Of a DNA stretch of 64,000 bases, positions 11,389-46,036 are shown in pieces (position 1 is the stretch's first letter; every line of letters begins with the position of its first letter). The position numbers and the translations under genes are program-made. Source of the stretch: Capnocytophaga periodontitidis. GTDB taxonomy: Bacteria > Bacteroidota > Bacteroidia > Flavobacteriales > Flavobacteriaceae. The notes beneath the pieces were generated by a model. It was not told the DNA's origin. It saw only the letters and a list, made by a program, of their open reading frames with translations, and made no database searches. Where the stretch lies: positions 248,001 through 312,000 of the forward strand of contig NZ_JAEFDB010000003.1 of the NCBI RefSeq assembly GCF_016126015.1, read 5' to 3'.

Positions 11389-13033
11389 AGTTTATTACTT
11401 TGTCTATCGACTTGAAGAAAGTATTCAAACTGTTCTTTTCAATCCCTTTAAGGTGATAAATAAATTCAGCTGAAGAGTTGTCGATGCGTTTGCACTCTAT
11501 GTTAGTGGAATGTTGGATAAATAAATCGAAAGCTAAACTGCCTTCACGGCTGTTTTTTTCTCTAATTATATCAACATACTCTTGTGGATAATCCTTAGGT
11601 TCTAAACTCATATAGAAATAGGCGAGATCTTTGCTTACGTGTTTGCCAAAATCGGACTTCACTGCGTTGTTGCTCACACCGCCTTTTAGGAATGCTTCTA
11701 CACCTTTAGGAGAATTACTGCCGTAGAAAGCCTTATTGTTATAAGCAAAATAAAGCGTGAGGTCTTTTTGAAGAGGGAGTTTGTAATAACCGTTTTCTAA
11801 CGCTAAGTGAGCAAGTGCTACCCCTTTGTCGAGGAGCGTTTTATCGCCTATATTGAATGAGAGTCCAAAAACAGGAAACATTCTTTCTTTTTCTACTTCT
11901 TTGTATTCATAACCATCTTCACTTTGCTCATCTTCTACCAAATCATAGCTGATATATTTTTGATTTTCAAAACCTTCAATAGCTAACACAAAGCTACCAC
12001 CAAAGAAGTTGAGCACATTGTCCTTAGTAAGCCCCTGAGTGTTGAGGAGTTTCACGAGGTCGTCCTCATTGAGTTCTTTGCCAAATTGAGCTTTTAAGAA
12101 CTCGTAGTAGTTTTTCACATTTACAGCGCCACCTATGGCTATAGGTAATTTTTCAGGGAAGTTTTTCAAGATATCTTTATCAAACGAGATATCGTACAAG
12201 TCGTATTTTTTTAAGAGTTTAGCTGTTTCTTGGTTGTAGATGCTATAAGTAGTGAGCTTGATATCATCTTTACCGAAATCTATAAAGCCATAGAAATAAG
12301 AGTCTTTTTGCATATTGAAGAGACTTTTGTATAAAGAAGCTGCAATTCCATTGAGGAACATACTGTCGTCTTGCATAAAGCCTCCAAAATTCAACCATAC
12401 ATTGATATCCTTCTGTCCGTCTAAGAAATCAGAAAAACCTTTGATATCAGTAATTTGCTCTGATTTACTTTGTTCATATAGTTTTTTAAGCACTACATCA
12501 ACTCTTGTACTATAGTTGTCGTTTACAAGGAAGAGCATTTTCTTGTTGTCCCAACTGAGGGATGCTCCTTCATTAAAATAAACAATGTTTAAAGCACCTT
12601 CTTTTTTGATGTCCAACTGAAGTTTTGTAGCTTGAGAGACTCTGTTTAGCAAGTCTTTAAATTTAGCGTCATCGCTTAGTACTGCAGTTACACCTATATA
12701 AGGGTTGCGGCTATCACCTCCGTATTTTTTACTGTCGCATACAAAAAAGAAAACATTCTTTTTAAAGTCAACTCCTGAAGACTTAGGGTCTTTTAGAATT
12801 TCATTGAAAATTTTACCCATTTCCTTGTTGTCGTTGCTGATTTCCTCTTTGAGTTTTTGGAAACTCTTGAGTTGTTGTAATTCCTCTACATCGGCTTTTT
12901 GGTAAAGCGATTGCAAGTCGAATGAAACGACTACCATAGCATCTTTAGGGATTACTTTTAAGTTCTCACTTTTCTTAGAACACGAAGTAAATCCTAAGGC
13001 TAATACACCTAATAATAAAATAAACTTTTTCAT
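11378..13033 (-). CDS. DUF4836 family lipoprotein in a MacAB-like operon
   Basis: A 551-residue exported protein; MKKFILLLGVLALGFTSC is a lipoprotein signal with the lipobox Cys at about 18, followed by SKKSEN. The start of the mature part (LKVIPKDAMVVVSFDLQSLYQKA) is characteristic of DUF4836, an uncharacterised Bacteroidetes family. The rest alternates beta strands and helices without enzymatic motifs. It lies between the adaptor gene (12 bp) and the ATPase gene (11-bp overlap), so it is probably a substrate, partner or regulator of the pump. Its function is unknown. Confidence 0.75.
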   Translation of the reverse strand: MKKFILLLGVLALGFTSCSKKSENLKVIPKDAMVVVSFDLQSLYQKADVEELQQLKSFQKLKEEISNDNKEMGKIFNEILKDPKSSGVDFKKNVFFFVCDSKKYGGDSRNPYIGVTAVLSDDAKFKDLLNRVSQATKLQLDIKKEGALNIVYFNEGASLSWDNKKMLFLVNDNYSTRVDVVLKKLYEQSKSEQITDIKGFSDFLDGQKDINVWLNFGGFMQDDSMFLNGIAASLYKSLFNMQKDSYFYGFIDFGKDDIKLTTYSIYNQETAKLLKKYDLYDISFDKDILKNFPEKLPIAIGGAVNVKNYYEFLKAQFGKELNEDDLVKLLNTQGLTKDNVLNFFGGSFVLAIEGFENQKYISYDLVEDEQSEDGYEYKEVEKERMFPVFGLSFNIGDKTLLDKGVALAHLALENGYYKLPLQKDLTLYFAYNNKAFYGSNSPKGVEAFLKGGVSNNAVKSDFGKHVSKDLAYFYMSLEPKDYPQEYVDIIREKNSREGSLAFDLFIQHSTNIECKRIDNSSAEFIYHLKGIEKNSLNTFFKSIDKVINYEN

Positions 13034-13044
13034 AGTATTAACTG

Positions 13045-13065
13045 TTATTTGTTATTTGTTAGTTG
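13045..13065. repeat. Heptamer repeat, 3 units (TTATTTG/TTATTTG/TTAGTTG)
   Basis: Three 7-bp units begin exactly at the reverse-strand stop of the adaptor gene and encode its last residues (LTNNK). Confidence 0.65.
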
Positions 13066-14292
13066 AACGGTATCTCCATTTTTTAAACTTTTACTCACAA
13101 CGTTATAAGGTCCTGTGATGATAATTTCGTCTTTGGCGACACCTGAAAGGATTTCGATATGCACATTGTCCTGAATGCCTGTATTTACAGCGCGAAGTTC
13201 GGCTTTACCGTTTTTGAACACGAATACCGCTTCTTGTTTTTTATCAGCGTCTTCTTTAGGCGTTTTAGGGTCGATTTCCGATTTTTTCTTTACAATAATA
13301 GCACTGATAGGAACTGCTACTATATCTTTTTTGGTTTTAGTGAGTATATCAACAGTAGCAGTCATTCCTGGGCGGAAAGGAGAATAGCCCGCGGGCTTGC
13401 CTTCTAAAAGGTCTTTGTAAGAAGTTTCTTCTATATGTATTTTTACTTTGAAGTTCGTTACTTGGTCTACACTGGTGGTAGTGTTGGCGGTGTTCGCAAT
13501 ATTGGTAACCCTACCTTTGAACACGCGCTTGAGGTAAGCATCGACTTCTACATTCACTGAGTCGCCTACGCTTATCTTCACGATATCATTCTCATTTACA
13601 TCTACTTCTACCTCCATATTGTGAAGGTTAGCCACGCGCATAATCTCAGTTCCCGTCATTTGCATCGTACCTACTACGCGCTCGCCTAACTCTACACTGA
13701 GTTTAGAAATAGTGCCATCAGTAGGTGAGTAGATAATTGTTTTTTTGAGGTTATCTTGGGCTTCCGATACACTTGCCATCGCACTTTGTACATTGAAACG
13801 AGCCGACTCGCGAGAGGCTTTGGCAACCTCATAGGCTGATACAGCTTTGTCCCAATCGGATTTAGAGATAACGCCCTTTTCGTACAATACTTTGTTGCGT
13901 TTGTAACTCTCTTCGGCTTCTTTGAGCGTTGCGGCTGATTGTTGTAAGCTCGCACGTACGGTTTCTAAACTCGCCGCACTGCGTTTTACTACTGATTGGT
14001 AAATATCAGGATTGATACGCACCAAAAGATCGCCTTTTTTGACCATTTGCCCTTCTTTTACAGGGAGTTCTATAATTTCTCCTGATACTTCTGAAGATAG
14101 TTTGATTTCTAATTCAGGCTGTATTTTTCCTGTAGCGGATACTTTTTGGACAATAGTTGTAGGGGTAATTTTTTCTGTTTCAACAGTTAAGACATCGCTG
14201 TTACCACCAAACCAGCCTGCTTTTTTTCCGACAATTAGTACGATTAAAAGCAAGACAACGGATAAAATAATGAGTATAGTTTTTCTTTTCAT
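13045..14292 (-). CDS. MacA/HlyD-type periplasmic adaptor protein
   Basis: A 415-residue membrane fusion protein. It has an N-terminal anchor (MKRKTILIILSVVLLLIVLIV), a biotinyl/lipoyl-like half motif (SGEIIELPVKEGQMVKKGDLL), a long alpha-helical hairpin (about 85-165, rich in Ala/Ser/Glu), a second lipoyl half (IYSPTDGTISKLSVELGE), and a beta-barrel domain. The start at 14292 is preferred over an upstream ATG at 14319 because the latter falls inside the TATCTTTG promoter box. It leads the operon adaptor-DUF4836-ATPase-permease and should link the pump to an outer membrane channel; no channel gene is in this cluster. Confidence 0.88.
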   Translation of the reverse strand: MKRKTILIILSVVLLLIVLIVGKKAGWFGGNSDVLTVETEKITPTTIVQKVSATGKIQPELEIKLSSEVSGEIIELPVKEGQMVKKGDLLVRINPDIYQSVVKRSAASLETVRASLQQSAATLKEAEESYKRNKVLYEKGVISKSDWDKAVSAYEVAKASRESARFNVQSAMASVSEAQDNLKKTIIYSPTDGTISKLSVELGERVVGTMQMTGTEIMRVANLHNMEVEVDVNENDIVKISVGDSVNVEVDAYLKRVFKGRVTNIANTANTTTSVDQVTNFKVKIHIEETSYKDLLEGKPAGYSPFRPGMTATVDILTKTKKDIVAVPISAIIVKKKSEIDPKTPKEDADKKQEAVFVFKNGKAELRAVNTGIQDNVHIEILSGVAKDEIIITGPYNVVSKSLKNGDTVQLTNNK

Positions 14293-33065: not shown

Positions 33066-33371
33066 AAAAATACACCTCGTATTTTGCACTTTTCGTCGAT
33101 AAAATCAGCCTTTCTGTCGATATTATTTGCCTAAATCCTCTCTTCATCTTACCTTTGCACCATAAATTTTAAAACAGCGCATTGGTGTCTCATTTACTAA
33201 ACTTTAACAAAAGATTAACGCCATCCCACACTTGCCTATAACTATTTTTGAACTACTTTTGCCAATAACACTTACCCTCCAACCCCACCTAACCACCTCT
33301 ACCTCCCCCGACCGGTCAGCCCCGTCCGACTCGTCCTAAAACTAACACTAACAACTAATAATTAAAGTATT
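33066..33371. promoter_or_regulatory. Leader of the RND operon: two tandem promoters and a C-rich untranslated region
   Basis: There is no coding frame. Promoter 1 has -33 TTTG (33126-33129), a 20-nt spacer and -7 TACCTTTG (33150-33157). Promoter 2 has TTG (33232-33234), a 19-nt spacer and -7 TACTTTTG (33254-33261). A pyrimidine-rich stretch of CCCCACC and CCCGTCCGACTCGTC type (about 33270-33340) fills the leader and resembles one at 36916-36978 before the outer-membrane channel gene. No TetR or AraC regulator gene adjoins. Confidence 0.6.
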
Positions 33372-34478
33372 ATGAATAAAATCTTTTTAACAGCAACAAC
33401 CGCTATCGCATTGGTAGCTTGTAATAATGGAAATCAACAACAACAACAATCAAATGGACCTGAGGCTTATCCTGTGATTGTAGTAGGTGAACAAAATACG
33501 GTTTCTCAACTCTCTTATCCAGTAAATATTGAAGGCATTGTAAACAGCTCCGTGCAGGCCAAGATTTCTGGTTATATCACCAAAGTATTAGTAGACGAAG
33601 GTCAGGTAGTAACCCAAGGGCAACCGTTGTTTCAGCTGGAAACTCAAACCCTTAACCAGTCGGCAGCCTCAGCCAAAGCAGCGGTAGAGGTCGCCAAAGT
33701 AGAAGTAGATAAATTAGTGCCCTTGGTAGAAAAAAATATCGTGAGCCCCGTGCAATTAGCAACTGCCAAAGCCAACTTGCAACGCGCTCAAGCTGCCTAC
33801 AACGAGGTGGCCAGCAATATCGGTTTTGCGGTAGTAAAAGCACCTGTAAATGGAGTAGTAGGAGCAATCAACTTCCGAGAAGGTGCTTTAGTAACCGCCA
33901 ATAACACAGTACTCACTACTGTTTCTGATGTGAAAGAGGTATATGCTTATTTTTCAATGAACGAAAAAGAATACCTCGACTTTTTAGCTAACACCGAAGG
34001 CAAAACTACTACCGAAAAACTCAAAAACCTGCCTGAGGCTTCTTTGGTATTAGCTAACGGAAAAGAGTATGCTGAAAAAGGTAAAATTCAAGCGGTAACC
34101 GGACAAATTGACCCCTCTACAGGTAGCATACAGTTCCGCGCTACTTTCCCTAATCCTAACAAATTGCTCACTAATGGCAATAGTGGAACGATTAAAATAC
34201 CTCAAAATTTCAATAATTCACTTGTAATTCCTGAGGTAGCCACTTTTGAACAACAAGGAAAAGTATTTGTATACCGCGTAGCCGAAAAAGACACCTTGCG
34301 ACAAACCGTCATCACACTTAAAAACCGCGCTGATAATTATGCAGTTGTAGAAAGCGGACTCAAAAAAGGCGATCTCATCCTCGCTCAAGGTCTCAACAAG
34401 GTACGTACAGGTACCGTGATCAAACCCCAAACCATTTCAATGGACAGCCTCGTAAAGAAAATACAACCTATCTTTTAG
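33372..34478 (+). CDS. RND efflux periplasmic adaptor, MexA/AcrA-like lipoprotein
   Basis: A 368-residue membrane fusion protein; MNKIFLTATTAIALVAC is a lipoprotein signal (Cys about 17), followed by a Gln/Asn run. Lipoyl half motifs (AKISGYITKVLVDEGQVVTQGQPLF and VKAPVNGVVGAINFREGALV) flank a helical hairpin (about 95-150). The beta-barrel (about 180-265) includes TGQIDPSTGSIQFRATFPNP, typical of RND partners. It joins the inner-membrane pump at 38422 with the channel at 36987. Unusually, three unrelated small genes and a gene stub lie between it and the channel gene. Confidence 0.92.
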   Translation: MNKIFLTATTAIALVACNNGNQQQQQSNGPEAYPVIVVGEQNTVSQLSYPVNIEGIVNSSVQAKISGYITKVLVDEGQVVTQGQPLFQLETQTLNQSAASAKAAVEVAKVEVDKLVPLVEKNIVSPVQLATAKANLQRAQAAYNEVASNIGFAVVKAPVNGVVGAINFREGALVTANNTVLTTVSDVKEVYAYFSMNEKEYLDFLANTEGKTTTEKLKNLPEASLVLANGKEYAEKGKIQAVTGQIDPSTGSIQFRATFPNPNKLLTNGNSGTIKIPQNFNNSLVIPEVATFEQQGKVFVYRVAEKDTLRQTVITLKNRADNYAVVESGLKKGDLILAQGLNKVRTGTVIKPQTISMDSLVKKIQPIF

Positions 34479-34485
34479 TGAAAAG

Positions 34486-34572
34486 TTGCCCCTCGTCATT
34501 CGTAACTCGTAACTCGTCATTCGTAACTCGTCATTCGTAACTCGTCATTCGTAACTCGTCATTTGCCCCTCG
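34486..34572. repeat. Heptamer array TCATTCG/TAACTCG flanked by 10-bp direct repeats
   Basis: Alternating 7-bp units TCATTCG and TAACTCG run from 34496 to 34558, mostly as 14-bp pairs with one extra TAACTCG. They are bounded on both sides by TTGCCCCTCG (34486-34495 and 34563-34572). The array lies between the adaptor stop and the first cassette gene. A 10-bp flanking duplication could mark an insertion junction. Confidence 0.75.
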
Positions 34573-34577
34573 TTATT

Positions 34578-35405
34578 ATGAAATATTTGTTATTATTACT
34601 CTTTTCTCTGCCTCTCACAGCACAAGTTAAGGAATCCCAAGGCGGAGGTATAAAGGATATAGGGGAAATTTCTAACAAGACTCCACTTTACCTCATCGAT
34701 GGAAAGAAATTTAGCGAATGGAGTTTAAAGACTAAAAAACTACAACCCAAAGATATAGCCGAAATTTTGGTATTTTTTACAGAAGAAGCTAAAAATCTTT
34801 TTGGCAACAGTGCAAAATACGGAGCCGTATATATCATCACTAAGGAAACTTTTCAGAAAGCAGAAGCCCTTGTCAATAATCCTCCTAATAGGCAACTCAA
34901 CAGGAAAGAGCAACTTTATGCCGAGATTTGGGAAGTCTATCAAACGCGACGCTCTATAGTGGTTTCGGGGAAAGTTAGTAACAGAGAAGGCAAACCTCTG
35001 GCTAATATTAGGGTATATAACAAAGATAGCAATACCGAGGTTCTCACCGATAGCATAGGCAATTACACGATCCAAGCCCGTCGCTGGGAGGCGATACAAG
35101 CTGAAAATATAGAGGATTGTTATCTTGTTGTAAAAGAAGCAAAAGAGCAAAGTTATAACTTTGTACAACATCCTCCTATTGAAAGCAGAAGTAGCGACCC
35201 AAGAGCCTCTACACTTTCTGTATTTGGGTCGCCTTGCGACAAGTTGTTTGTTCTCGACGGAGTGCCTATGGAAAATAAAAAAAGTTTTCTTGCTAAAATA
35301 AGAAATAAGAAGATAGAGAAAATAATAGAATTAGATGAGCAACAAGCTTCGATGTATGGCTCTCTTGGAGCCTATGGAGTAATCATTGTAAACACTAAAA
35401 AATAA
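34578..35405 (+). CDS. Exported protein with two TonB-plug-like segments around a carboxypeptidase-regulatory-like domain (paralogue 1)
   Basis: A 275-residue protein with signal peptide MKYLLLLLFSLPLTAQ. Segment A (about 35-85; PLYLIDGKKF, then KDIAEILVFF, then KYGAVYIITKE) and segment C (about 220-275; KLFVLDGVPM, then KIEKIIELDEQQASMYGSLG, then YGVIIVNTKK) both follow the SusC/RagA plug pattern (VxDGxP...I..I.VLKDA.A.YG..GA.GV..I.TK). Between them is a carboxypeptidase-regulatory beta sandwich (SGKVSNREGKPLANIRVYNK). No outer-membrane barrel follows. Function unknown; perhaps a periplasmic or surface protein that mimics or binds TonB-dependent receptors. Repeat DNA lies upstream; the next paralogue starts 5 bp on. 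Confidence 0.75.
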   Translation: MKYLLLLLFSLPLTAQVKESQGGGIKDIGEISNKTPLYLIDGKKFSEWSLKTKKLQPKDIAEILVFFTEEAKNLFGNSAKYGAVYIITKETFQKAEALVNNPPNRQLNRKEQLYAEIWEVYQTRRSIVVSGKVSNREGKPLANIRVYNKDSNTEVLTDSIGNYTIQARRWEAIQAENIEDCYLVVKEAKEQSYNFVQHPPIESRSSDPRASTLSVFGSPCDKLFVLDGVPMENKKSFLAKIRNKKIEKIIELDEQQASMYGSLGAYGVIIVNTKK

Positions 35406-35410
35406 AAGCT

Positions 35411-36301
35411 ATGACCCGACTTACTATATTTTTATTCTTTTTTACGCTTTCGGTTATGGCGCAAGCTATTAAGGAGTCTATCGAAAAAACAAATAGTATA
35501 ACCCAGATAGCGACTGCTTTTAGAGCCTGTCATTCTATTGTAGAAAATACACCTCCTCTTATTATGCTGGATGATGAAAGCATTAGTGATAATCATAAAT
35601 TCCTTAACGAATGGGGAAATAGAGCAGATGAAATTGAAACAATTTATATATTAAGGAATGATATAGTAACAGCTTTATATGGATCACGAGCTATAAATGG
35701 CTTGATATATGTTACCACCAAAGTAGCTAAACAAAAAGCTGATAGCCTTGCAATGAGTCGTTGGACAAGAAGGAAGCTAAAGAAATATCAGAAATATCAA
35801 AAATATTGGAATATTTTAGGGTGGTATAACTATATGAATTCTTTTATTACTATAACGGGTAAAGTTACTGATAAAGAAGGTAAGCCTTTGGCTAATATTA
35901 GGGTATATAATAAAGATAGGAATACTGAGACATATACGGATAGTTTAGGCAATTACGCTATCCAAGCACGTCGTTGGGAGGCAATACAACCTGAAAATAT
36001 AGAGGATTGTTATCTTGTTGTAAAAGAAGCAAAAGAGCAAAGTTATAACTTTGTACAACATCCTCCTATTGAAAGAAGGAGTAGCGACCCAAGAGCCTCT
36101 ATACCTTCTATAAGTTTGAAAACTCCTTGCGACAAGTTGTTTGTTCTCGACGGAGTGCCTATAGAAAAAAAGGAAGAGTTTCTCAAAAAAATACGACGGA
36201 AGAAAATAGAGGAAATAATAGAAATAGATGGACAATCAGGAGTTCCATTATATGGCTCTCTTGGAGCCTATGGCGTAATCATTGTAAACACTAAAAAATA
36301 A
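35411..36301 (+). CDS. Exported plug-like protein (paralogue 2)
   Basis: A 296-residue paralogue of the previous gene (signal peptide MTRLTIFLFFFTLSVMAQ). The same order is seen: a first plug-like segment (PPLIMLDDESI ... IETIYILRNDIVTALYGSRA ... IYVTTK, about 48-110), a carboxypeptidase-regulatory-like domain (ITGKVTDKEGKPLANIRVYN, about 148-205), and a second plug-like segment (LFVLDGVPIEKK ... YGVIIVNTKK, about 238-296). An 85-bp stretch of its DNA (35991-36075) is identical to 35101-35185 in paralogue 1, which means recent duplication or gene conversion. It starts 5 bp after paralogue 1 and ends 5 bp before paralogue 3. Confidence 0.75.
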   Translation: MTRLTIFLFFFTLSVMAQAIKESIEKTNSITQIATAFRACHSIVENTPPLIMLDDESISDNHKFLNEWGNRADEIETIYILRNDIVTALYGSRAINGLIYVTTKVAKQKADSLAMSRWTRRKLKKYQKYQKYWNILGWYNYMNSFITITGKVTDKEGKPLANIRVYNKDRNTETYTDSLGNYAIQARRWEAIQPENIEDCYLVVKEAKEQSYNFVQHPPIERRSSDPRASIPSISLKTPCDKLFVLDGVPIEKKEEFLKKIRRKKIEEIIEIDGQSGVPLYGSLGAYGVIIVNTKK

Positions 36302-36306
36302 AAGTT

Positions 36307-36861
36307 ATGACCCGAATTACTATATTTCTATTCTTTTTTACGCTCTCGGCTATGGCGCAAATTACTATAACAGGGAAAGTTACCGATTATCAAGGGAAGC
36401 CTCTTGCCAATATTACCGTAAATACAGATGTAATTACTTATACAAACGAAGGGCATTACGCAGCTAATGAGGTAAAAACAGATGCCAATGGTATGTATAA
36501 GATACAAGCAAAACAGTGGGATACAATCCACTTTGACAATATGGGCTGTTATATTGTGTTTAAAGACACACCTCACCAAGTATATAACCATACTATGGAC
36601 AGACTCTATAGGAATAGTGATATTCATATAGAGTATGGTTATATTTGTGGAATCCTTTTTATACGTAATGATAAGATAGTTGAAGAAAAAGATAGAGAAG
36701 CATTCAAAAAAGAACTCCGAAGCGGACAGTTTTACAAGTATTCTGTAATGGAGAAGCAAGAGTTATTTGAGCAATATGGCTATCTCAGTCAATATGGATT
36801 AGTAGCTTATACCAAAGATTACTATAATGAGCATAAAAAGAATAAGAGTAAAAAGAAATAA
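36307..36861 (+). CDS. Exported plug-like protein (paralogue 3, shorter)
   Basis: A 184-residue member of the same cluster (signal peptide MTRITIFLFFFTLSAMAQ). It lacks the first plug-like segment: the mature protein begins directly with the carboxypeptidase-regulatory-like domain (ITITGKVTDYQGKPLANITVN). The end is a diverged plug-like segment (CGILFIRNDKIVEEK ... YGYLSQYGLVAYTKDYY) and a basic Lys-rich tail. The signal peptide is nearly identical to that of paralogue 2, and the start spacing is the same (5 bp after the previous stop). Function unknown. Confidence 0.7.
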   Translation: MTRITIFLFFFTLSAMAQITITGKVTDYQGKPLANITVNTDVITYTNEGHYAANEVKTDANGMYKIQAKQWDTIHFDNMGCYIVFKDTPHQVYNHTMDRLYRNSDIHIEYGYICGILFIRNDKIVEEKDREAFKKELRSGQFYKYSVMEKQELFEQYGYLSQYGLVAYTKDYYNEHKKNKSKKK

Positions 36862-36873
36862 AATATTTTTGAT

Positions 36874-36978
36874 ATGACCCAACTTACTATATTTTTATTC
36901 TCTTTTACACTTTCATCAGACCCGTCTGACTTGTCTGCCCCGTCTGAACCCCCTAACCCCCTAACCCCTAACCCCTAA
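36874..36978 (+). pseudogene. Stub of a fourth paralogue (signal peptide only)
   Basis: The frame begins MTQLTIFLFSFTLSS, clearly the same signal peptide as paralogues 2 and 3, but after 15 codons it runs into C-rich repeat sequence (DPSDLSAPSEPPNPLTPNP) and a stop 8 bp before the outer-membrane channel gene. The body of the gene has been lost or replaced by the CCCGTCTGA/CCCCCTAA repeats. Confidence 0.7.
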
Positions 36979-36986
36979 CAACTAAT

Positions 36987-38384
36987 ATGTATAAAATCAT
37001 TTATAAATCAGTTGCTATAGTAACTATAGCCCTTAGCCTTACCGCTTGTGCAGGTCGTAAATCTTATGAACGCCCACAAGTTATAAACGAAAAACTTTTC
37101 CGTACGGATAATATCCCTACGGATAGCCTTAGCAGTGCTAATGTATCTTGGCGTAACATCTTCACCGATGCCACTCTCCAACAACACATCAGCAAGGCGC
37201 TTGCCAATAACCTCGATGTGCGGGTAGCGATGCAAAGTGTAGTTTCAGCACAAGCCTACCTCAAACAAAGTAAGGCGGCTTTTATCCCTACCCTCTCAGT
37301 AGGAGCTAACTATACCCGTAGTACCAACTCTATCAATGCAACGGGAGGTATGGGCGAACGTACTTACAACAACCTATTTGATATTACGGGTAGTGCTTCG
37401 TGGGAAGCCGATATTTGGGGCAAACTCTCCGCCCAAAAACGCGCCTCCTATGCCTCTTATTTGGCAACTGTCGAAGCTCAAAAAGCAGTACAGTCCGAAG
37501 TGGTAGCAACTTTAGCAACAGCTTATTACCAATTGTTGATGCTTGACGAACAGAAAAAAGTACTCGAACAAACAATTGAGTTCCGCACCAAAAGTTTGGA
37601 AACTACCAAACAACTCAAAAATGCAGGTTCTACTACCGAAGTAGCGACCAAGCAAATCGAAGCACTTGTGTACAACGCACAAGCACAACTTATTACAATC
37701 AACAATAGCGTATGGGCATTGGAGAATACGATATGCGTACTCCTCGGTGAAGAACCTCATCACATAGAGCGAAGCACCCTTGCCGAGCAACAATTCCCTA
37801 CTGAATTTAAACAAGGATATGCTGTAAGTTTGCTCAAAAATCGTCCTGATGTGGCACGTGCCGAACTGAACTTGCGCAACGCTTTTGAACTCACCAATGT
37901 AGCCCGTGCTGCTTTCTATCCTACCCTCACTCTCAGTGCTCGTGGCGGTATCAGCAGTACTGAACTCGATACTTGGTTTTCAGCCAAATCGATGTTTGCT
38001 AACTTTATAGCGGGATTGGCGCAACCTATCCTCAATCGCCGACAAATACGCACCCAGTACGAAGTGCAAAAAGCTGCTCAAGAAACCGCTTTGCTCAACT
38101 TCAAAAAGGCAATTCTTTCAGCAGGCAAAGAAGTCTCTGATGCAATGCACCAATTCAACTCTCAAGACGAGTTTATCCAACTCAAAACTAAAGAAATGGA
38201 AGCCTATCAAAAGGCAACTGATTTCTCTAAACAACTCTTTGATAGTGGTATGGTGAATTATTTGGAGGTGATCACTGCCGAAGTAAACCGCCTCAACGCC
38301 GAGCTTAGTGTTGCCAACGCACAATTCACTCGTATGCAGTATGGTATCACCTTGTATAAAGCCCTCGGAGGAGGCTGGAAATAA
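36987..38384 (+). CDS. RND efflux outer-membrane channel lipoprotein (OprM/NodT family)
   Basis: A 465-residue TolC-type channel; MYKIIYKSVAIVTIALSLTAC is a lipoprotein signal (Cys about 21). It has the internal duplication of long helices typical of the family: VLLGEEPHHIERS ends the first half, LKNRPDVARAELNLRNAFEL begins the second, and LFDSGMVNYLEVITAEVNRL is the closing helical block. It forms the outer-membrane exit duct for the adaptor and AcrB-type pump. It is 37 bp upstream of the pump gene. Confidence 0.92.
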   Translation: MYKIIYKSVAIVTIALSLTACAGRKSYERPQVINEKLFRTDNIPTDSLSSANVSWRNIFTDATLQQHISKALANNLDVRVAMQSVVSAQAYLKQSKAAFIPTLSVGANYTRSTNSINATGGMGERTYNNLFDITGSASWEADIWGKLSAQKRASYASYLATVEAQKAVQSEVVATLATAYYQLLMLDEQKKVLEQTIEFRTKSLETTKQLKNAGSTTEVATKQIEALVYNAQAQLITINNSVWALENTICVLLGEEPHHIERSTLAEQQFPTEFKQGYAVSLLKNRPDVARAELNLRNAFELTNVARAAFYPTLTLSARGGISSTELDTWFSAKSMFANFIAGLAQPILNRRQIRTQYEVQKAAQETALLNFKKAILSAGKEVSDAMHQFNSQDEFIQLKTKEMEAYQKATDFSKQLFDSGMVNYLEVITAEVNRLNAELSVANAQFTRMQYGITLYKALGGGWK

Positions 38385-38421: not shown

Positions 38422-41400
38422 ATGATAAAAAGTTTTATAAACAGACCGGTACTATCAACGGTAATTTCTATTCTGATAGTAATTTTAGGGATTTTAGGGA
38501 TTATATCCTTACCTATTTCCCAATACCCCGACATTGCCCCTGTAACAGTACAGGTATCGGCTAACTATGCAGGTGCCAATGCCGAAACAGTGCTTAAAGC
38601 AGTGGTGATTCCCTTAGAAGAACAAATAAATGGGGTTGAAAATATGGATTATATTACCTCATCGGCTTCTAATAGTGGTTCAGCAAATATTACTGTGTAT
38701 TTCAAACAAGGCACCAATGGTGATATTGCAGCAGTAAACGTGCAAAATGCAGTGTCGCGTGCGAACTCTATTTTGCCATCGGAGGTAACCCAATCGGGGG
38801 TAACCGTGCGCAAGCAGAGTTCAGGTAACCTGATGTTCCTCACTTTCTTTTCTGAAAATAAAGAGTTAGACGATGTGTTCTTGCAAAACTACTTGAGCAT
38901 CAATGTGATTCCTGCAATCAAACGTATCAGTGGGGTAGGGGATGCCAGTGCTTTTGGAGGTAAAACCTATTCTATGCGTATTTGGTTAAATCCGCAAAAA
39001 CTCCAAGCCTATGGGCTCAACCCTACCGAGGTAACTGCTGCAATTTCAGCTCAGAGTAGAGAAGCAGCTGCGGGTACTTTGGGGCAAAACAGCGGTAGTA
39101 GCTATGAATATGTAATTAAATATAAAGGAAAATACACTCAAGTATCTGAATACGAGAATATAGTACTCAAAGCCTTAGATGGCGGACGTGTACTTCGCCT
39201 CAAAGATGTGGCTACTGTAGAACTCGATGCCTTGGGATATACAGGATTTTCTGAAAGTAAAGGTCGTCCTGCGGTGGCTATGGGTATTTCCCAAACCCCA
39301 GGCTCTAATGCTCACGAAATTATCCAAAATATCGAAAAACTCTTAGAGGAGCTAAAACCTTCTTTCCCCGAAGGGATTACTTATACTATCAACTACAACG
39401 CCAATACGTTCTTAGATGCTGCCATTTCTAAGGTGGTGTCTACCCTCTTAGAGGCTTTCCTTTTGGTGTTCTTGGTGGTGTATATCTTCTTGCAAGACTT
39501 CCGTTCTACACTCATCCCTGCTATTGCGGTACCAGTGTCTATCGTGGGTACTTTCTTCTTCTTGAACCTCTTTGGTTATTCTATCAATATGCTTACCCTC
39601 TTCGCCTTGGTGTTAGCCATCGGTATAGTGGTAGATGATGCGATAGTCGTCGTCGAGGCGGTGCACGCCAAAATGGAGCAAACTCACGAGAAAGCGAAAC
39701 CTGCTACCATTTCGGCTATGAACGAGATTACAGGGGCGATTATCTCTATCACTTTGGTAATGGCAGCAGTGTTCGTGCCGGTAACCTTTATGGGCGGTAC
39801 TACGGGGGTGTTCTACAAACAATTTGGGGTAACTCTGATTGTAGCGATTGTCATTTCAGCAATCAATGCGCTCACCCTCAGTCCGGTACTTTGCTCGCTC
39901 TTCCTCAAACCTCACGGCGATAAAGAATATGAAGAAAAATCGTGGTTTGGCAAGTTCTTCCACAAGTTTAATGTAGCTTTCAATGCAGCAACTTATAAAT
40001 ACGGACAAACTTTTACTTTCTTCCTTCGCCACAAATGGGTAACCTTAGTGCTTTTACTCTTGGCAGGAGGTGGTATCTATTTTACCAATAAAAGTATGAA
40101 ATCGGGGTTTGTGCCCAGTGAAGACCAAGGGTTTGTGATGATGGATGTATCTATGATTCCTGGTGCCTCTATGGAACGTGTTGCCAATATTATGCGTGAA
40201 GTAAACGAAAGTCTTTCCAATATCCCAGGGGTGGAAAATGTTACCTTTGTAACGGGTCGTGGTATGATTTCGGGCGAAGGTAGTAACAATGGTATGGGCT
40301 TCTTCAAGCTGAAACCTTTCGAACAGCGTTCTAAACTCCCTGGTCAAGACATTCAGTCAATTATCAATAATGCCTTTCGTGCAGTAGCTAATGTCAAAGA
40401 TGCCAATGTGATTTTCTTCCAACCGCCTTCAGTACCTGGTTTTGGTATAGGTGGTGGGGTGTCATTTGTGCTCTTGGATAAATCCGGAAGTGATATCAGT
40501 GAGGTGAACAAAAATGCACAGCAATTTTTAGGTGCTTTGATGCAACGCCCTGAAATAAAATTTGCTCAAACCTCTTTCAATGTAAATTATCCACAATACC
40601 AAATGGATATCAATGTAGAGCGCGCTATGCAATCGGGTATTACGGTGAGTACGATTCTTTCTACCTTGCAGAACTATATAGGTGGTTTTTACGCTACCGA
40701 CTTTACCCTCTACGGAAAGCAATACCGCGTAATGGTACAATCGTTGCCCGAAGCGCGTAAAGACCTCAATAGCCTGAACAACTTGTTCGTAAAAACAGGT
40801 AGTGGCACAATGGCGCCTATTACCGAGTTCGTAACGCTCACACGTACCTTTGGACCTCAATCGCTCAGCCGTTATAATTTATTTACTTCGGTATCTATTT
40901 CGGCTCAGAATAACCCTGCTTATAGTACGGGTGATGCCCTAAAAGCAGTACAAGAGGTAGCAGCCCAAACCCTTAATGCTAATTATAGTATCGATTATAC
41001 AGGTTTAACACGTGAAGAACAAACCGCAGGCTCACAAACCATACTCATTTTCTTGCTCAGCTTGGTGTTTACTTATTTTATCCTTTCAGCACAGTATGAG
41101 AGTTACTTATTGCCATTATCAGTGCTCTTCTCATTGCCTTTTGGTATCTTTGGAGCTTATTTAGGACAGTGGCTTTTTGGCTTGGAAAACAATATCTATT
41201 TCCAAATCTCTCTTATTATGCTAATGGGACTCTTGGCAAAGAATGCAATTCTAATTGTAGAATTTGCCGTACAACGCCGCCGTATGGGTGAGAGTCTCTC
41301 TAAAGCAGCCATCAATGCCGCTATGGCGCGTTTGCGTCCTATCTTGATGACCTCTTTTGCCTTTATCGTTGGTTTGATGCCATTGGTATTTGCCTCAGGA

Positions 41401-41583
41401 GTAGGTGCCGAAGGTAACCGTTCAGTAGCTACAGGGGCTGCGGTAGGGCAGTTGATAGGTACTTTCTTTGGATTGATAGTTATACCTGTGCTCTTTGTTG
41501 TTTTTCAAGACTTGCAAGAGCGCATTAGCGGTTACCGACACAAATCCGACGAAATATTCGTGACCCCAACGGATGAATATTAA
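38422..41583 (+). CDS. RND multidrug efflux pump, AcrB/MexB (HAE1) type
   Basis: A 1053-residue inner-membrane proton/drug antiporter with 12 helices and two large periplasmic loops. TM4 carries the paired Asp of the proton relay (IVVDDAIVVVEAV, about 408), and TM10 the matching Lys (MGLLAKNAILIVEFA, about 937). FINRPVLSTVISI and PISQYPDIAPVTVQV are standard N-terminal blocks. Substrates likely include detergents, dyes and antibiotics, but cannot be predicted. Last gene of the operon starting at 33372. Length is normal for the family. Confidence 0.95.
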   Translation: MIKSFINRPVLSTVISILIVILGILGIISLPISQYPDIAPVTVQVSANYAGANAETVLKAVVIPLEEQINGVENMDYITSSASNSGSANITVYFKQGTNGDIAAVNVQNAVSRANSILPSEVTQSGVTVRKQSSGNLMFLTFFSENKELDDVFLQNYLSINVIPAIKRISGVGDASAFGGKTYSMRIWLNPQKLQAYGLNPTEVTAAISAQSREAAAGTLGQNSGSSYEYVIKYKGKYTQVSEYENIVLKALDGGRVLRLKDVATVELDALGYTGFSESKGRPAVAMGISQTPGSNAHEIIQNIEKLLEELKPSFPEGITYTINYNANTFLDAAISKVVSTLLEAFLLVFLVVYIFLQDFRSTLIPAIAVPVSIVGTFFFLNLFGYSINMLTLFALVLAIGIVVDDAIVVVEAVHAKMEQTHEKAKPATISAMNEITGAIISITLVMAAVFVPVTFMGGTTGVFYKQFGVTLIVAIVISAINALTLSPVLCSLFLKPHGDKEYEEKSWFGKFFHKFNVAFNAATYKYGQTFTFFLRHKWVTLVLLLLAGGGIYFTNKSMKSGFVPSEDQGFVMMDVSMIPGASMERVANIMREVNESLSNIPGVENVTFVTGRGMISGEGSNNGMGFFKLKPFEQRSKLPGQDIQSIINNAFRAVANVKDANVIFFQPPSVPGFGIGGGVSFVLLDKSGSDISEVNKNAQQFLGALMQRPEIKFAQTSFNVNYPQYQMDINVERAMQSGITVSTILSTLQNYIGGFYATDFTLYGKQYRVMVQSLPEARKDLNSLNNLFVKTGSGTMAPITEFVTLTRTFGPQSLSRYNLFTSVSISAQNNPAYSTGDALKAVQEVAAQTLNANYSIDYTGLTREEQTAGSQTILIFLLSLVFTYFILSAQYESYLLPLSVLFSLPFGIFGAYLGQWLFGLENNIYFQISLIMLMGLLAKNAILIVEFAVQRRRMGESLSKAAINAAMARLRPILMTSFAFIVGLMPLVFASGVGAEGNRSVATGAAVGQLIGTFFGLIVIPVLFVVFQDLQERISGYRHKSDEIFVTPTDEY

Positions 41584-43002: not shown

Positions 43003-43028
43003 TTATCTATTACTTGTTACCTGTTACC
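43003..43028. repeat. Heptamer repeat at the end of the VIT/vWA gene
   Basis: Units TTATCTA, TTACTTG, TTACCTG, TTACC begin just downstream of the terminator. They include the reverse-strand stop (TTA at 43010) and encode the C-terminal residues VTGNK. Confidence 0.65.
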
Positions 43029-46000
43029 AGAAAAGCTCCTACTTCAATCACTTCTTTAGCATTGCTCAAGCGTACAGTAGTTTCTTCTTGTTTTTGCTGT
43101 GGAGTACCAAAGTGTGTGTAGAAAGTAATGCGCAAACTCACGGGCATCAATTGCTTTTGTGAGTGAGTGCCAAAGTAATCTACTTGTACTTTGTATTGAC
43201 CTTTCATAGCTTTTTTAATCATAAACTCTTCAGGGCCATAACCTTCAGTTACGTCGTCTGATATTTTTCCACCGAGATAAGTGATTGTGTTTTGGTAATA
43301 ACATTTCTCGCCTTTAGGGTCGGTTACCCATAAGTCCATATCGCAATCATTGGTATCCCAAGAGAGTACTACACGCACATCTACGGGCTCTTTTTTGAGC
43401 AAACGCTTGTCGATATAGCTCGTTTTTACATTTTTATTACGCGCTACGATACTGTTGAGGTCGTTCAGGGTAATGAGCTTTACATCTTCAAATCGATCGT
43501 CGTTCCAATCTTCAGTAATTACTTTGTAAAGGTTCTTCACTGCTTCATTGTACTGGGTATCATCGGCTAAAGCTAAGCCTAAATCACGGAAAGATTGAGG
43601 CTCTTCTGGTCGTATAGTTGCTACTTTTTGAAATACTTGTACCGCTTCTTTTTTGGCATTGTAACGACTGAGTTTATAACCTAATACTCTGAGCAGTTGT
43701 GGGTCGTCTAAACCGAGTTCTGCCAAATTAGAAACCACTAAAATCGCTTGCTCGCGATTGCCTTTTTTGAAGAAGTAATCGGCTACATCGGCATAGAAAG
43801 CAGGTGTTGTGCCGTATTCTTTTTTCAGTTTGTAATAGGTTTCTACAGCTTTAGCTTCTTCAGTGTATTCCATTACCTTTAAATAAGGAGTATCGGGGTT
43901 GTAGGCATTGAGTTCTATATTTGCCATTGGGGTATTTTCAACTCTCACATCATTTATAGCTATAGCAGAAACAGAGCCTGTTAGACTTCTTTCCATCACA
44001 GGAGCGTAACCCCTTACTACTACCTCATTGAGTTCTGAGCGATCAGTATCTTCTGAAACAGAGCTTATCCCTCTCATACTGATTCCTCGCGCTTGAGCTT
44101 GAACTTCAGCTTGAGGTACAGACTCTTCCATTTTAGCTGTTTCAGCAGAAGCTATAACCTCATCTTTTATTTCAGCACGATTGTCGGTTATTTCATCTAC
44201 TACTACATTTAGCTGCTTTTTGTTTTTAGTTTTTTTATCTTTTAGAGGATATACGGTTTTCCACCATTCTGTTTGCTCGTTTGATTGCTCAATAAGGTTT
44301 TCTAAAATTTCCTTTTTCCTCTCTTTTTTCTCTTCTGCTTGAGAGTTTAGTCTCGCATAGTACTCTTTAGCCAATTCTTCAGGAGGTGTAATGCGGTAGC
44401 GCACATAATCTTCTACGGTTTCTAAAACGATAAGTGAGTTACCTTCAGTTACAATGCTGTATTCACGTCCTACGGCATCTATTTGCTTTTGTTCAGCGCT
44501 TTCGCGTTCTAATTGTGCAATTTGCTTTTCTGCCCATATACGGCGCAAAAGGTCAAACTCACTTCCCGAAGCATCGGGGTTAGCTGTAAAATGGATTTCT
44601 TTTTGTACGATTATATTTTTAGGGTATCCAAAGCTGAGTACTAAGGTTGCTTCTTTAGTTTGTAATTCGCCTGCAAGTGTAAAATTACCTTTGGTAATAG
44701 TAGTGCCTTTCTGTGGGAAAAATTTAGCTATTTTACCATTTTTCACTTCTATATCCAGCAGTTGGAAAGGTACAGTCTGCGCTACTTTTAGTGCCTGCTC
44801 GGTAGTGAGGGTGGTCAAATCTATAAAGCTACCCCCCGTAGCATTGGCGAGGTATTGTATTTTTGATGTATTGGCAACTGCCGACGCATTGACTACCGTT
44901 ATAGGGGTTTTGGCTTGTTTTACTACTTCGTTTACTGAAAAATCTTTACTGCCAAAGTTGAAAATACCATCGCTAAAGAGGAGTAATTCATCGGCTTTGA
45001 GACTGAAATTGATAGCGTTGCCATCGGTAGCACCATCATATTGCAAACTTTCTAAATGTGATTTCAGCGCTTGCCAATTGCCGTTTTTCACTTCAAAACT
45101 AAGGGGTTTATCAGTGCGAATATTGAAGCTGCTAAGAACGACTTTCATATTTTTGACTGCTTTGAAATAAGCGTCTAAGAAAGCAAATTCTTTTGCTCTA
45201 TCGCGATTGCTTGCCGAATGTGACGCATCCCATAAAATACCTATTTCTGTAGGGATAGGTTTGTTTTTGGATTGGGCAGTCGCCAAAGCGATATTGCCAT
45301 AGCAATAGGTTTTGTTGCCTTTAGTAGCACTAATGCTTTGTGGTTTCTCAATTTTAGGGAAAGTGAGCGCAATGTTCTGGTTGAGCGCAAAATTCTGTTG
45401 GCTCACCTCACTGATATAGCTGTTGCGCGCTTGCTTGAAGTCTAATTGCAAGCTGTTTTGAATATCAGCCTTTACAAAGCGCGATACTACTTCGGTGCGT
45501 ACTTTGAAGTTTTTAAGGGTTACATTAGCTGTGATGGGCAAGAAGTAATAATCCTGTCCATTGCGCTCGTGTAACTCTTGTTCAAAAGCGATAAGCACAC
45601 GGCGAGAGCCTTGGGCAGGCATAGGATACACGCGGGCTTTGAAGTTATTGCCCTCCGTCTTTTCTAACAAACCAGGGTCTACACCCCTGCGCACGATTTC
45701 CTCAAAGGCTTTGCGCCCTGAGGTCTTATCTACTACCACCCCTTCGCGCATTTTGCCGTTGATGTCCAAAGCAAAGCGTGACACCTGCTGACCGTCGGCA
45801 AGAGGAAACTGAAATTCGCCTTCCATTACGCGGCTGTTGGGGTTGTAGAAAGTCATTTCCATAGTGGTGACGGCTGTTTGCCCTATTACCAATATGTCTA
45901 TGGAGAGGTCTTGCAACACCATAGGGTTGGCATTGCGTTCATTCACTACCTTCACCTCGGGCACCACCGATTTCTGTGCGGTGATCACAAAGGAAAGCAG

Positions 46001-46036
46001 TAAAGCTACTGAAGATAAAAAATGTTTGATTTTCAT
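43010..46036 (-). CDS. VIT/vWA-domain protein with a SusC-like segment, TPR region and DUF2135
   Basis: A 1008-residue exported protein (signal peptide MKIKHFLSSVALLLSFVITAQ). The VIT domain (about 25-160) has FYNPNSRVMEGEFQFPL and RVYPMPAQGSRRVLIAFE. A vWA domain (about 245-420) has a MIDAS-like DASHS. After a charged helical stretch comes a short segment with the consensus of SusC receptors (NEVVVRGYAPVMERSLTG, about 668-685). TPR-like helices follow at about 730-850. DUF2135 at the C-terminus (about 880-1000) includes WDTNDCDMDLWVTDPKGE. It is probably a surface or periplasmic adhesion or sensing protein. It lies 57 bp downstream of the ABC exporter gene. Confidence 0.88.
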   Translation of the reverse strand: MKIKHFLSSVALLLSFVITAQKSVVPEVKVVNERNANPMVLQDLSIDILVIGQTAVTTMEMTFYNPNSRVMEGEFQFPLADGQQVSRFALDINGKMREGVVVDKTSGRKAFEEIVRRGVDPGLLEKTEGNNFKARVYPMPAQGSRRVLIAFEQELHERNGQDYYFLPITANVTLKNFKVRTEVVSRFVKADIQNSLQLDFKQARNSYISEVSQQNFALNQNIALTFPKIEKPQSISATKGNKTYCYGNIALATAQSKNKPIPTEIGILWDASHSASNRDRAKEFAFLDAYFKAVKNMKVVLSSFNIRTDKPLSFEVKNGNWQALKSHLESLQYDGATDGNAINFSLKADELLLFSDGIFNFGSKDFSVNEVVKQAKTPITVVNASAVANTSKIQYLANATGGSFIDLTTLTTEQALKVAQTVPFQLLDIEVKNGKIAKFFPQKGTTITKGNFTLAGELQTKEATLVLSFGYPKNIIVQKEIHFTANPDASGSEFDLLRRIWAEKQIAQLERESAEQKQIDAVGREYSIVTEGNSLIVLETVEDYVRYRITPPEELAKEYYARLNSQAEEKKERKKEILENLIEQSNEQTEWWKTVYPLKDKKTKNKKQLNVVVDEITDNRAEIKDEVIASAETAKMEESVPQAEVQAQARGISMRGISSVSEDTDRSELNEVVVRGYAPVMERSLTGSVSAIAINDVRVENTPMANIELNAYNPDTPYLKVMEYTEEAKAVETYYKLKKEYGTTPAFYADVADYFFKKGNREQAILVVSNLAELGLDDPQLLRVLGYKLSRYNAKKEAVQVFQKVATIRPEEPQSFRDLGLALADDTQYNEAVKNLYKVITEDWNDDRFEDVKLITLNDLNSIVARNKNVKTSYIDKRLLKKEPVDVRVVLSWDTNDCDMDLWVTDPKGEKCYYQNTITYLGGKISDDVTEGYGPEEFMIKKAMKGQYKVQVDYFGTHSQKQLMPVSLRITFYTHFGTPQQKQEETTVRLSNAKEVIEVGAFLVTGNK

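Follow-up and report, generated by a model that had tools for sequence, protein, structure and literature searches.

What are three short, secreted proteins that look like pieces of a TonB-dependent receptor doing in the middle of an efflux operon? The question arises in a 64,000 nt stretch of the Capnocytophaga periodontitidis genome (NZ_JAEFDB010000003.1, positions 248,001–312,000), referred to here as the window, with its genome labelled G000. In it, three open reading frames (ORFs) on the same strand, here named P1, P2 and P3, occupy positions 34578–36861 (+) and lie between the genes for the adaptor and the channel in a resistance-nodulation-division (RND) operon. An earlier note had described them as barrel-less paralogues resembling TonB plugs, and this held, except that the plug pieces are half plugs only and P3 differs from the other two. 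The reading that we favour, to which we give a probability of about one in three, is that P1–P3 are accessory periplasmic cassettes that act on SusC-type receptors, or on invaders that exploit them, and so protect the cell from phages or bacteriocins.

Domain layout of P1–P3

P1 (34578..35405, +) is 275 aa and consists of a signal peptide, a half-plug (A), a linker, a carboxypeptidase-regulatory-like (CpReg) domain and another half-plug (B). P2 (35411..36301, +; 296 aa) shares this layout. P3 (36307..36861, +; 184 aa) has a signal peptide, CpReg and a degenerate half-plug B. P1 and P2, and P2 and P3, are each 5 nt apart, and a TTG at 34563 is an alternative start for P1. By eye, all three N-termini are signal-peptide-like stretches that end in AQ with no adjacent Cys, so both the signal peptides and the spacing reported earlier were seen again.

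The CpReg cores lie at 34962..35075 (+) in P1 (PF13715, residues 129–166), 35849..35965 (+) in P2 (PF13620, residues 147–185) and 36364..36507 (+) in P3 (PF13620, residues 20–67). The motif of the domain that the earlier note had assigned to each protein is clear by eye; in the hidden Markov model search all three fall below the Pfam cut-off (best E 4.9e-5, 1.1e-6 and 3.9e-5 for P1, P2 and P3), and in P3 the Big_1 model (E 2.7e-5) is slightly ahead of CpReg. There is also a weak profile match to the CpReg structure of a SusC protein, 9hfj (E 0.039 and 0.02).

When the SusC models were used, the 31-residue signature TIGR04057 (cut-off 46.2 bits) matched two stretches of P2 (45.8 bits, E 3.7e-12) and one of P1 (27.4 bits, E 2.1e-6), and TIGR04056 matched three stretches in each of P1 (70.1 bits, E 1.3e-19) and P2 (88.9 bits, E 2.7e-25), far under its cut-off of 368.25 bits. 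Pfam Plug was found at the N-terminus of P2 only (model positions 57–106 of 107, E 0.0027). A profile of nine P1/P2-type proteins matched SusC homologues in PDB at the same half-plug (8aa4, E 1.3e-9; 5t3r, E 2.7e-9); a further match, 8vd6, was taken as spurious, being made of repeated short stretches in a protein from a design study. Half-plug A of P1 is placed at approximately 34680..34847 (+) by alignment A2 and by the PDB SusC homologues aligned to the family profile, and half-plug B at 35241..35402 (+) by TIGR04056 (residues 222–275). In P2, half-plug A is at 35552..35722 (+; Pfam Plug 48–97, TIGR04057 74–104) and half-plug B at 36128..36298 (+), with an approximate start, from the second TIGR04057 stretch and alignment A2. 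P3 has no match to TIGR04057 and none to TIGR04056 at E 1. The earlier note had given plug-like segments on both sides to two of the three paralogues; in P3 we find one degenerate C-terminal half-plug at approximately 36646..36816 (+), revealed when the profiles of the P3 types and the P1/P2 types were aligned (hhalign 99.5%, E 2.3e-23).

No β-barrel is present, in agreement with the earlier description: P1 and P2 end directly after half-plug B, and P3 approximately 15 residues later. The CpReg motif and the C-terminal YG are separated by 103, 105 and 99 residues in P1, P2 and P3, respectively, versus 157–185 in 17 of 17 receptor fragments from the same genome (an earlier FG or YG, at 59 in P1 and 52 in P3, was treated as not being the plug motif). 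Thus, 52–86 residues, corresponding to the Ton box and the first half-plug site, are missing. As judged from their sequences, the plug pieces of P1 and P2 are second halves of the SusC plug only, with the region of the Ton box and first half absent; plug segments do flank CpReg on both sides, as previously claimed, but they are not whole plugs. A Ton-box regular expression was too insensitive as a test and was replaced by this distance. In its strict form it matched 5 of 23 sequences, two of them P1 and P2, with some receptors likely counted twice; in its loose form it matched 10 of 17 receptors, and in P1 and P2 it hit the C-terminal strand only.

P1–P3 share with SusC/RagA receptors (TIGR04056, TIGR04057, PF07715, PF13715) a CpReg-like motif, the half-plug signature LDG ... 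YGS.GA.GVI.V.TK and a signal peptide, but lack the barrel and the Ton-box or first half-plug region, are 184–296 aa rather than approximately 1000 aa long and, in P1 and P2, carry a half-plug on either side of CpReg. Judging from other proteins of the family Flavobacteriaceae, the half-plug without a barrel is not new as a building block. M56 BlaR1-like peptidases (L072, L076; L numbers are our locus labels) carry C-terminal half-plugs that, as in P1 and P2, are repeated and come with no barrel, but they also contain a peptidase domain and do not match CpReg. A DUF4139/DUF4140 protein (L071, 865–2931) contains an inserted CpReg and half-plug outside a receptor, as here, but inside a larger protein, and the DUF4139/DUF4140 proteins of L116 (7139–14265) have CpReg alone (12361–14265) or neither module. 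YfbK-type vWA proteins (L075, and L073 by eye) resemble P1 and P2 in combining CpReg with a plug region and no barrel, but differ in a long vWA part and a Ton-box-like stretch that, by eye, has been kept. Another parallel is in G000 itself (L112, 2773–3345; contig C44), where a 190 aa protein near sucA- and sucB-like genes (named by eye) has a signal peptide and two SusC half-plugs without a barrel (TIGR04057, 43.5 bits); it differs in having no CpReg and in being a single gene. Elsewhere in G000 (L113, 2005–9876; contig C1), SusC-like ORFs of 606 and 646 aa flank one of 959 aa. The earlier suggestion that the arrangement was undescribed thus holds in part: among openly licensed PMC full texts we found no description of a CpReg-centred array or of its exchange, and the shuffled CpReg-centred array seems to be new, but its barrel-less half-plugs are not.

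Relatives, selection and exchange

The distribution of the family was examined in 20 Capnocytophaga genomes, one per species (G000 to G019). A P2 search returned matches at E 1e-8 in seven, that in G015 being a 972 aa ORF. Short ORFs were found in six (G000, G007, G011, G012, G013 and G018), and in all six they sit in the slot between adaptor and channel genes. In a seventh genome, G008, the slot is taken by a distant homologue (hhalign 97.1%, E 5.4e-11, 157 columns). The survey of Capnocytophaga RND operons that the earlier note had proposed therefore finds the slot occupied in six genomes plus this distant case, and the possibility it had raised, that homologues would be found only with full barrels, falls away. 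Degraded receptors were considered as the whole story and rejected, because in each of the six holders the relatives in the slot are short and under constraint (see below); decay is real for the remnants of copies found in G000, G011 and G018. That in G000 is a leader-only fourth copy at 36874..36978 (+) with its stop codon at 36976–36978. The size of the array is not the same in G000 and G018, two close species. In G011, the start of the P1 frame (L048, 8931–9908) is made up of the initial codons of a carbonic anhydrase gene, as after a deletion; that gene is whole in G007 and G012.

The channel and RND genes each had one match in 20 of 20 genomes at strict cut-offs, and SusC-type receptors are likewise present in all 20, so that in 13 genomes the RND gene is present but the family is not. 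In eight (G001, G005, G006, G009, G010, G015, G016 and G019) the channel comes directly after the adaptor, and the interval contains no ORF of 70 aa on the same strand. Gene order is different in G004, G014 and G017, while in G002 the adaptor is outside the examined stretch and in G003 the contig ends within the channel gene.

G008 also carries relatives outside the slot, reported here from among the matches listed, with short-ORF matches in G003, G012, G014, G016 and G017 left out. Ordinary receptors reach E 5.7e-15 in this search through their CpReg part by itself, so that among the G008 relatives only the gene at L115 9597–10037, which is without the leader, is clear by score (E 5.1e-29). 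The assignments of L116 9818–10405 (E 2.5e-14), near DUF4139 genes, and of the slot gene (E 8.5e-8) draw on near-full-length alignments together with the hhalign profile comparison. L116 11750–12337 (E 6.9e-8), also near DUF4139 genes, matches in the CpReg part only and is the least certain relative. P3-like genes of G008 lie beside or near DUF4139/DUF4140 genes, and the idea that the family is exclusive to the RND slot was dropped. In a family-wide search in which the best eight candidates per genome were scored, at least 7 of 299 genomes, G000 included, had a match at E 1e-10. Of the six other loci, Pfam assigned two to M56, one to DUF4139 and one to vWA; the remaining two looked, by eye, like a vWA protein and a receptor. 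A search of genome contigs returned 33 loci, four of them Capnocytophaga holders; of the remaining 29, 18 were inspected, and 15 had an ORF, all receptor-like by eye (858–1206 aa), with no ORF shown at L084, L086 and L089.

Synonymous divergence (dS) was estimated by NG86, with values near or above 1 to be taken as rough. The ratio of nonsynonymous to synonymous divergence (dN/dS) was 0.17–0.52 in all 25 pairs of P proteins, compared with 0.03–0.09 for the adaptor and channel genes, where dS was defined in 18 of 30 pairs. The P1–P3 family is kept by purifying selection.

For the P2–P6 types, dS is lower than in the channel gene in all 10 species pairs. In the two pairs that compare G007 with the close species G012 the gap is small to three-fold; among the other eight, six lie below the channel by a factor of 5.3 to 14.4 and two are compared with a saturated channel value. 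For P3 of G000 and G007, for example, dS is 0.22 versus a rough 1.55 for the channel. On these sequence comparisons, the P2–P6 types look exchanged between species. For P1, 11 of 15 pairs have a dS under that of the channel, or a channel value that is saturated.

Mosaic structure points the same way. In Max-chi2 tests, P2 of G000 switches from 0.45 to 0.88 identity with P1 of G007, and P1 of G000 from 0.85 to 0.46 identity with P1 of G018, each unmatched in 300 shuffles. The P3 genes of G000 and G007, and P2 and P1 within G000, were also mosaic (0/300), while the channel control from G000 and G007 (40/300) and P2 of G000 and G013 (30/300) were not. In 13 of 13 within-genome pairs of P2–P6 types, the 54 nt of leader DNA are 0.83–1.00 identical, compared with 0.38–0.74 for the bodies, and these conserved leaders may provide the homology for cassette exchange. 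The leader of P1 types differs from that of P2–P6 types. A leader pattern had 19 matches in the 20 genomes, 17 of them inside arrays, compared with seven for the reversed control pattern. A tree of CpReg and half-plug B has long branches and is indicative only.

The pump operon and its cargo

In the window, the HlyD-type adaptor gene is at 33372..34478 (+; PF16576, PF13437), the OEP-family outer-membrane channel gene at 36987..38384 (+; PF02321) and the RND pump gene at 38422..41583 (+; PF00873), which places the three paralogues between adaptor and channel as first reported. Upstream of the adaptor, at 33126..33157 (+), is a match to what we take to be the Bacteroidota promoter motif, and the + strand has no further match from 33157 to the end of the RND gene. 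It is therefore likely that P1–P3 are co-transcribed by read-through from the adaptor, and the co-expression proposed in the earlier note thus appears probable. The whole window has 16 matches to the presumed motif (2.5 expected). A sigma-70 promoter scan did no better than shuffles and was not used, none of the candidates from a terminator scan (10 versus 5.0) was used, and an Rfam search gave no match. Tandem repeats with a 14 bp step fill 34500–34565 in the gap between adaptor and P1; their 25-base pattern has 11 matches in the genome with at most two mismatches, including at other places. Further along, at 43010–46036 (minus strand), a 1008 aa protein with VIT and DUF2135 matches is encoded downstream of an OmpA-like gene.

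In the relatives, the operon holds other genes. The gap between channel and RND genes is 7.0–11.1 kb and contains cargo in G007, G011, G012, G013 and G015, so that in four of the six holders the RND gene is 7–11 kb away; the window's own gap has no cargo. SUKH-1-like and zeta-toxin-like genes and arrays of 245 aa tandem paralogues were seen in this gap (L045, L062, L066, L067, L068 and L069), and Pfam identified SUKH-1, zeta toxin, peptidase S51, DNA alkylation repair, flavodoxin and DUF6261 in the tested cargo of G007, G011 and G013. Three cargo families have a dS of 0.16–0.34 among G007, G012 and G013, compared with rough values of 2.6–3.1 for the channel and RND genes in pairs with G013. 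Low divergence is not uniform: for SDR, a SUKH-1 gene and the 245 aa family, which is also found at other places in G001 and G018, dS ranges from 0.33 to saturated. Directly upstream of the adaptor in G007 (L046, 11463–13125), G012 (L047, 5093–6752) and G011 (L048, 5793–7519) are MarR-like and MFS-like genes (by eye) that are not in the window. Position in the pump operon therefore need not imply a role in the pump.

Candidate roles

We propose that P1–P3 belong to a small secreted Capnocytophaga family built from CpReg and one or two second halves of the SusC plug, whose cassettes would have spread across species by recombination into the adaptor–channel gap and would be read through from the operon promoter. 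Their secretion signals would place them in the periplasm. There they may bind, from the periplasmic side, SusC-type TonB-dependent receptors, whose plug they partly copy, or invaders using those receptors. An inhibitor or decoy function, as the earlier note had put forward, may likewise be at work. The cell would then be shielded against phages or bacteriocins, much as Llp of phage T5 jams the FhuA plug, and shuffling of modules would match changing receptors or attackers. On this view the cassettes, rather than belonging to the pump, may serve as a quickly changing kit that protects the envelope. PMC9586334 describes Llp as binding the FhuA plug from the periplasm and blocking phage adsorption. 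T5 Llp and the Cor lipoproteins treated there are comparable in way of working only, as small secreted proteins with a proposed periplasmic action on a TonB receptor; Llp is a phage-encoded lipoprotein, while P1–P3 have no clear phage relatives. For a SusC receptor, PMC7782687 reports closed states in vitro in which the barrel does not contain the plug. A bolder version, in which P1–P3 are a host-encoded, shuffled repertoire of SusC-plug mimics, traded by oral Capnocytophaga and co-expressed with the pump, that jams or masks TonB-dependent receptors as a bacterial counterpart of Llp, we hold to be doubtful.

The shielding role is supported by the SusC-type signature without a barrel, the short relatives in the same slot, the dN/dS and low dS values, the mosaics and the leader identity, and also by the little-diverged neighbouring cargo of some relatives, including SUKH-1 and zeta-toxin-like genes. 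Several observations weigh against it. The GC content of P1–P3 (33.5–37.9%) is below that of the three pump genes (41.7–44.3%), but that of P1, at 37.9%, equals that of the upstream UbiA gene, and a dN/dS under 1 indicates constraint and not an arms race. In 4 of 15 pairs (G000–G018, 0.71 versus 0.29; G000–G011; G007–G011; G012–G011) dS of P1 exceeds that of the channel; this fits a chimaeric C-half, without being proof of it, and is in part evidence against a simple exchange. When 19 RND proteins were placed on a tree, with the G003 fragment excluded, the six holders needed four changes compared with a mean of 5.4 in shuffles, 66 of 500 of which were as low, and the holder pattern is not beyond chance either way. 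No lipobox was seen by eye in P1–P3, though Llp is a lipoprotein. Searches of viral contigs found no relative of P3 or of the P1/P2 profile, plasmids no relative of P2, PHROGs no match and PADLOC models no match at E 0.01 for P1–P3, while 50,697 phage records returned two short, weak matches to P2 (24% and 29% covered). Phage or plasmid cargo, entertained as an explanation, drew no support from the PHROGs, viral contig, plasmid and phage searches.

The tandem paralogues with divergent bodies and low dS between species would equally suit periplasmic immunity proteins, each cassette neutralising a toxin or bacteriocin of a rival, with the pump operon as a hotspot for immunity genes, and the SUKH-1 and zeta-toxin-like genes in the channel–RND gap of relatives are in keeping with this. 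However, that gap is free of cargo in the window, no Pfam or NCBIfam immunity family was matched, the SusC signature would go unexplained, and no cognate toxin turned up, nor was a search aimed at one; we regard immunity as unlikely. To a similar degree it is improbable that the cassettes are passengers of little host function, receptor fragments that spread and decay by repeat-driven recombination at a tolerant site. The remnants, the patchy presence, the unlike array sizes of G000 and G018 and a dN/dS that is relatively high could all be accounted for in that way, but this ratio stays at or below 0.52 in every pair and most copies retain an intact frame and signal peptide.

Two further explanations give the proteins a partner among resident envelope machinery. 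As general periplasmic helpers of SusC-type receptors, for instance in assembly or folding, they would use their plug and CpReg copies as docking modules. According to PMC7782687, CpReg (Pfam 13715) is the N-terminal extension of SusC, has no known function and, when deleted in B. theta, has a dominant-negative effect; half-plugs are also found repeatedly among other envelope proteins, and P1 (E 0.075) and P1 of G013 (E 0.012) weakly match a BamP model. That match is far under the cut-off and covers the CpReg part only, and 13 genomes with SusC-type receptors do without the family; we take helpers to be somewhat less likely still. Least probable by some way is that P1–P3 are accessory subunits of the pump or, as the earlier note had suggested, adaptors linking it to TonB. 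Their position in the operon, the 5 nt spacing, the probable co-transcription and the same slot in 7 of 20 genomes are what such a role would predict, but the RND gene is in all 20 genomes and the family in only six plus the distant homologue, the RND gene of most holders is kilobases away, G008 has relatives outside the slot and the Ton-box region is missing.

The efflux operon would then be a site of exchanged genes, at which neighbourhood alone is a poor guide to the partners of the pump. Plug domains have been studied mostly inside receptors. A secreted family in which only half a plug is duplicated and shuffled, under selection and with hints of passage between species, would mark that half as a working protein module in its own right, and would let one test directly whether bacteria employ it to control or shield TonB-dependent receptors.

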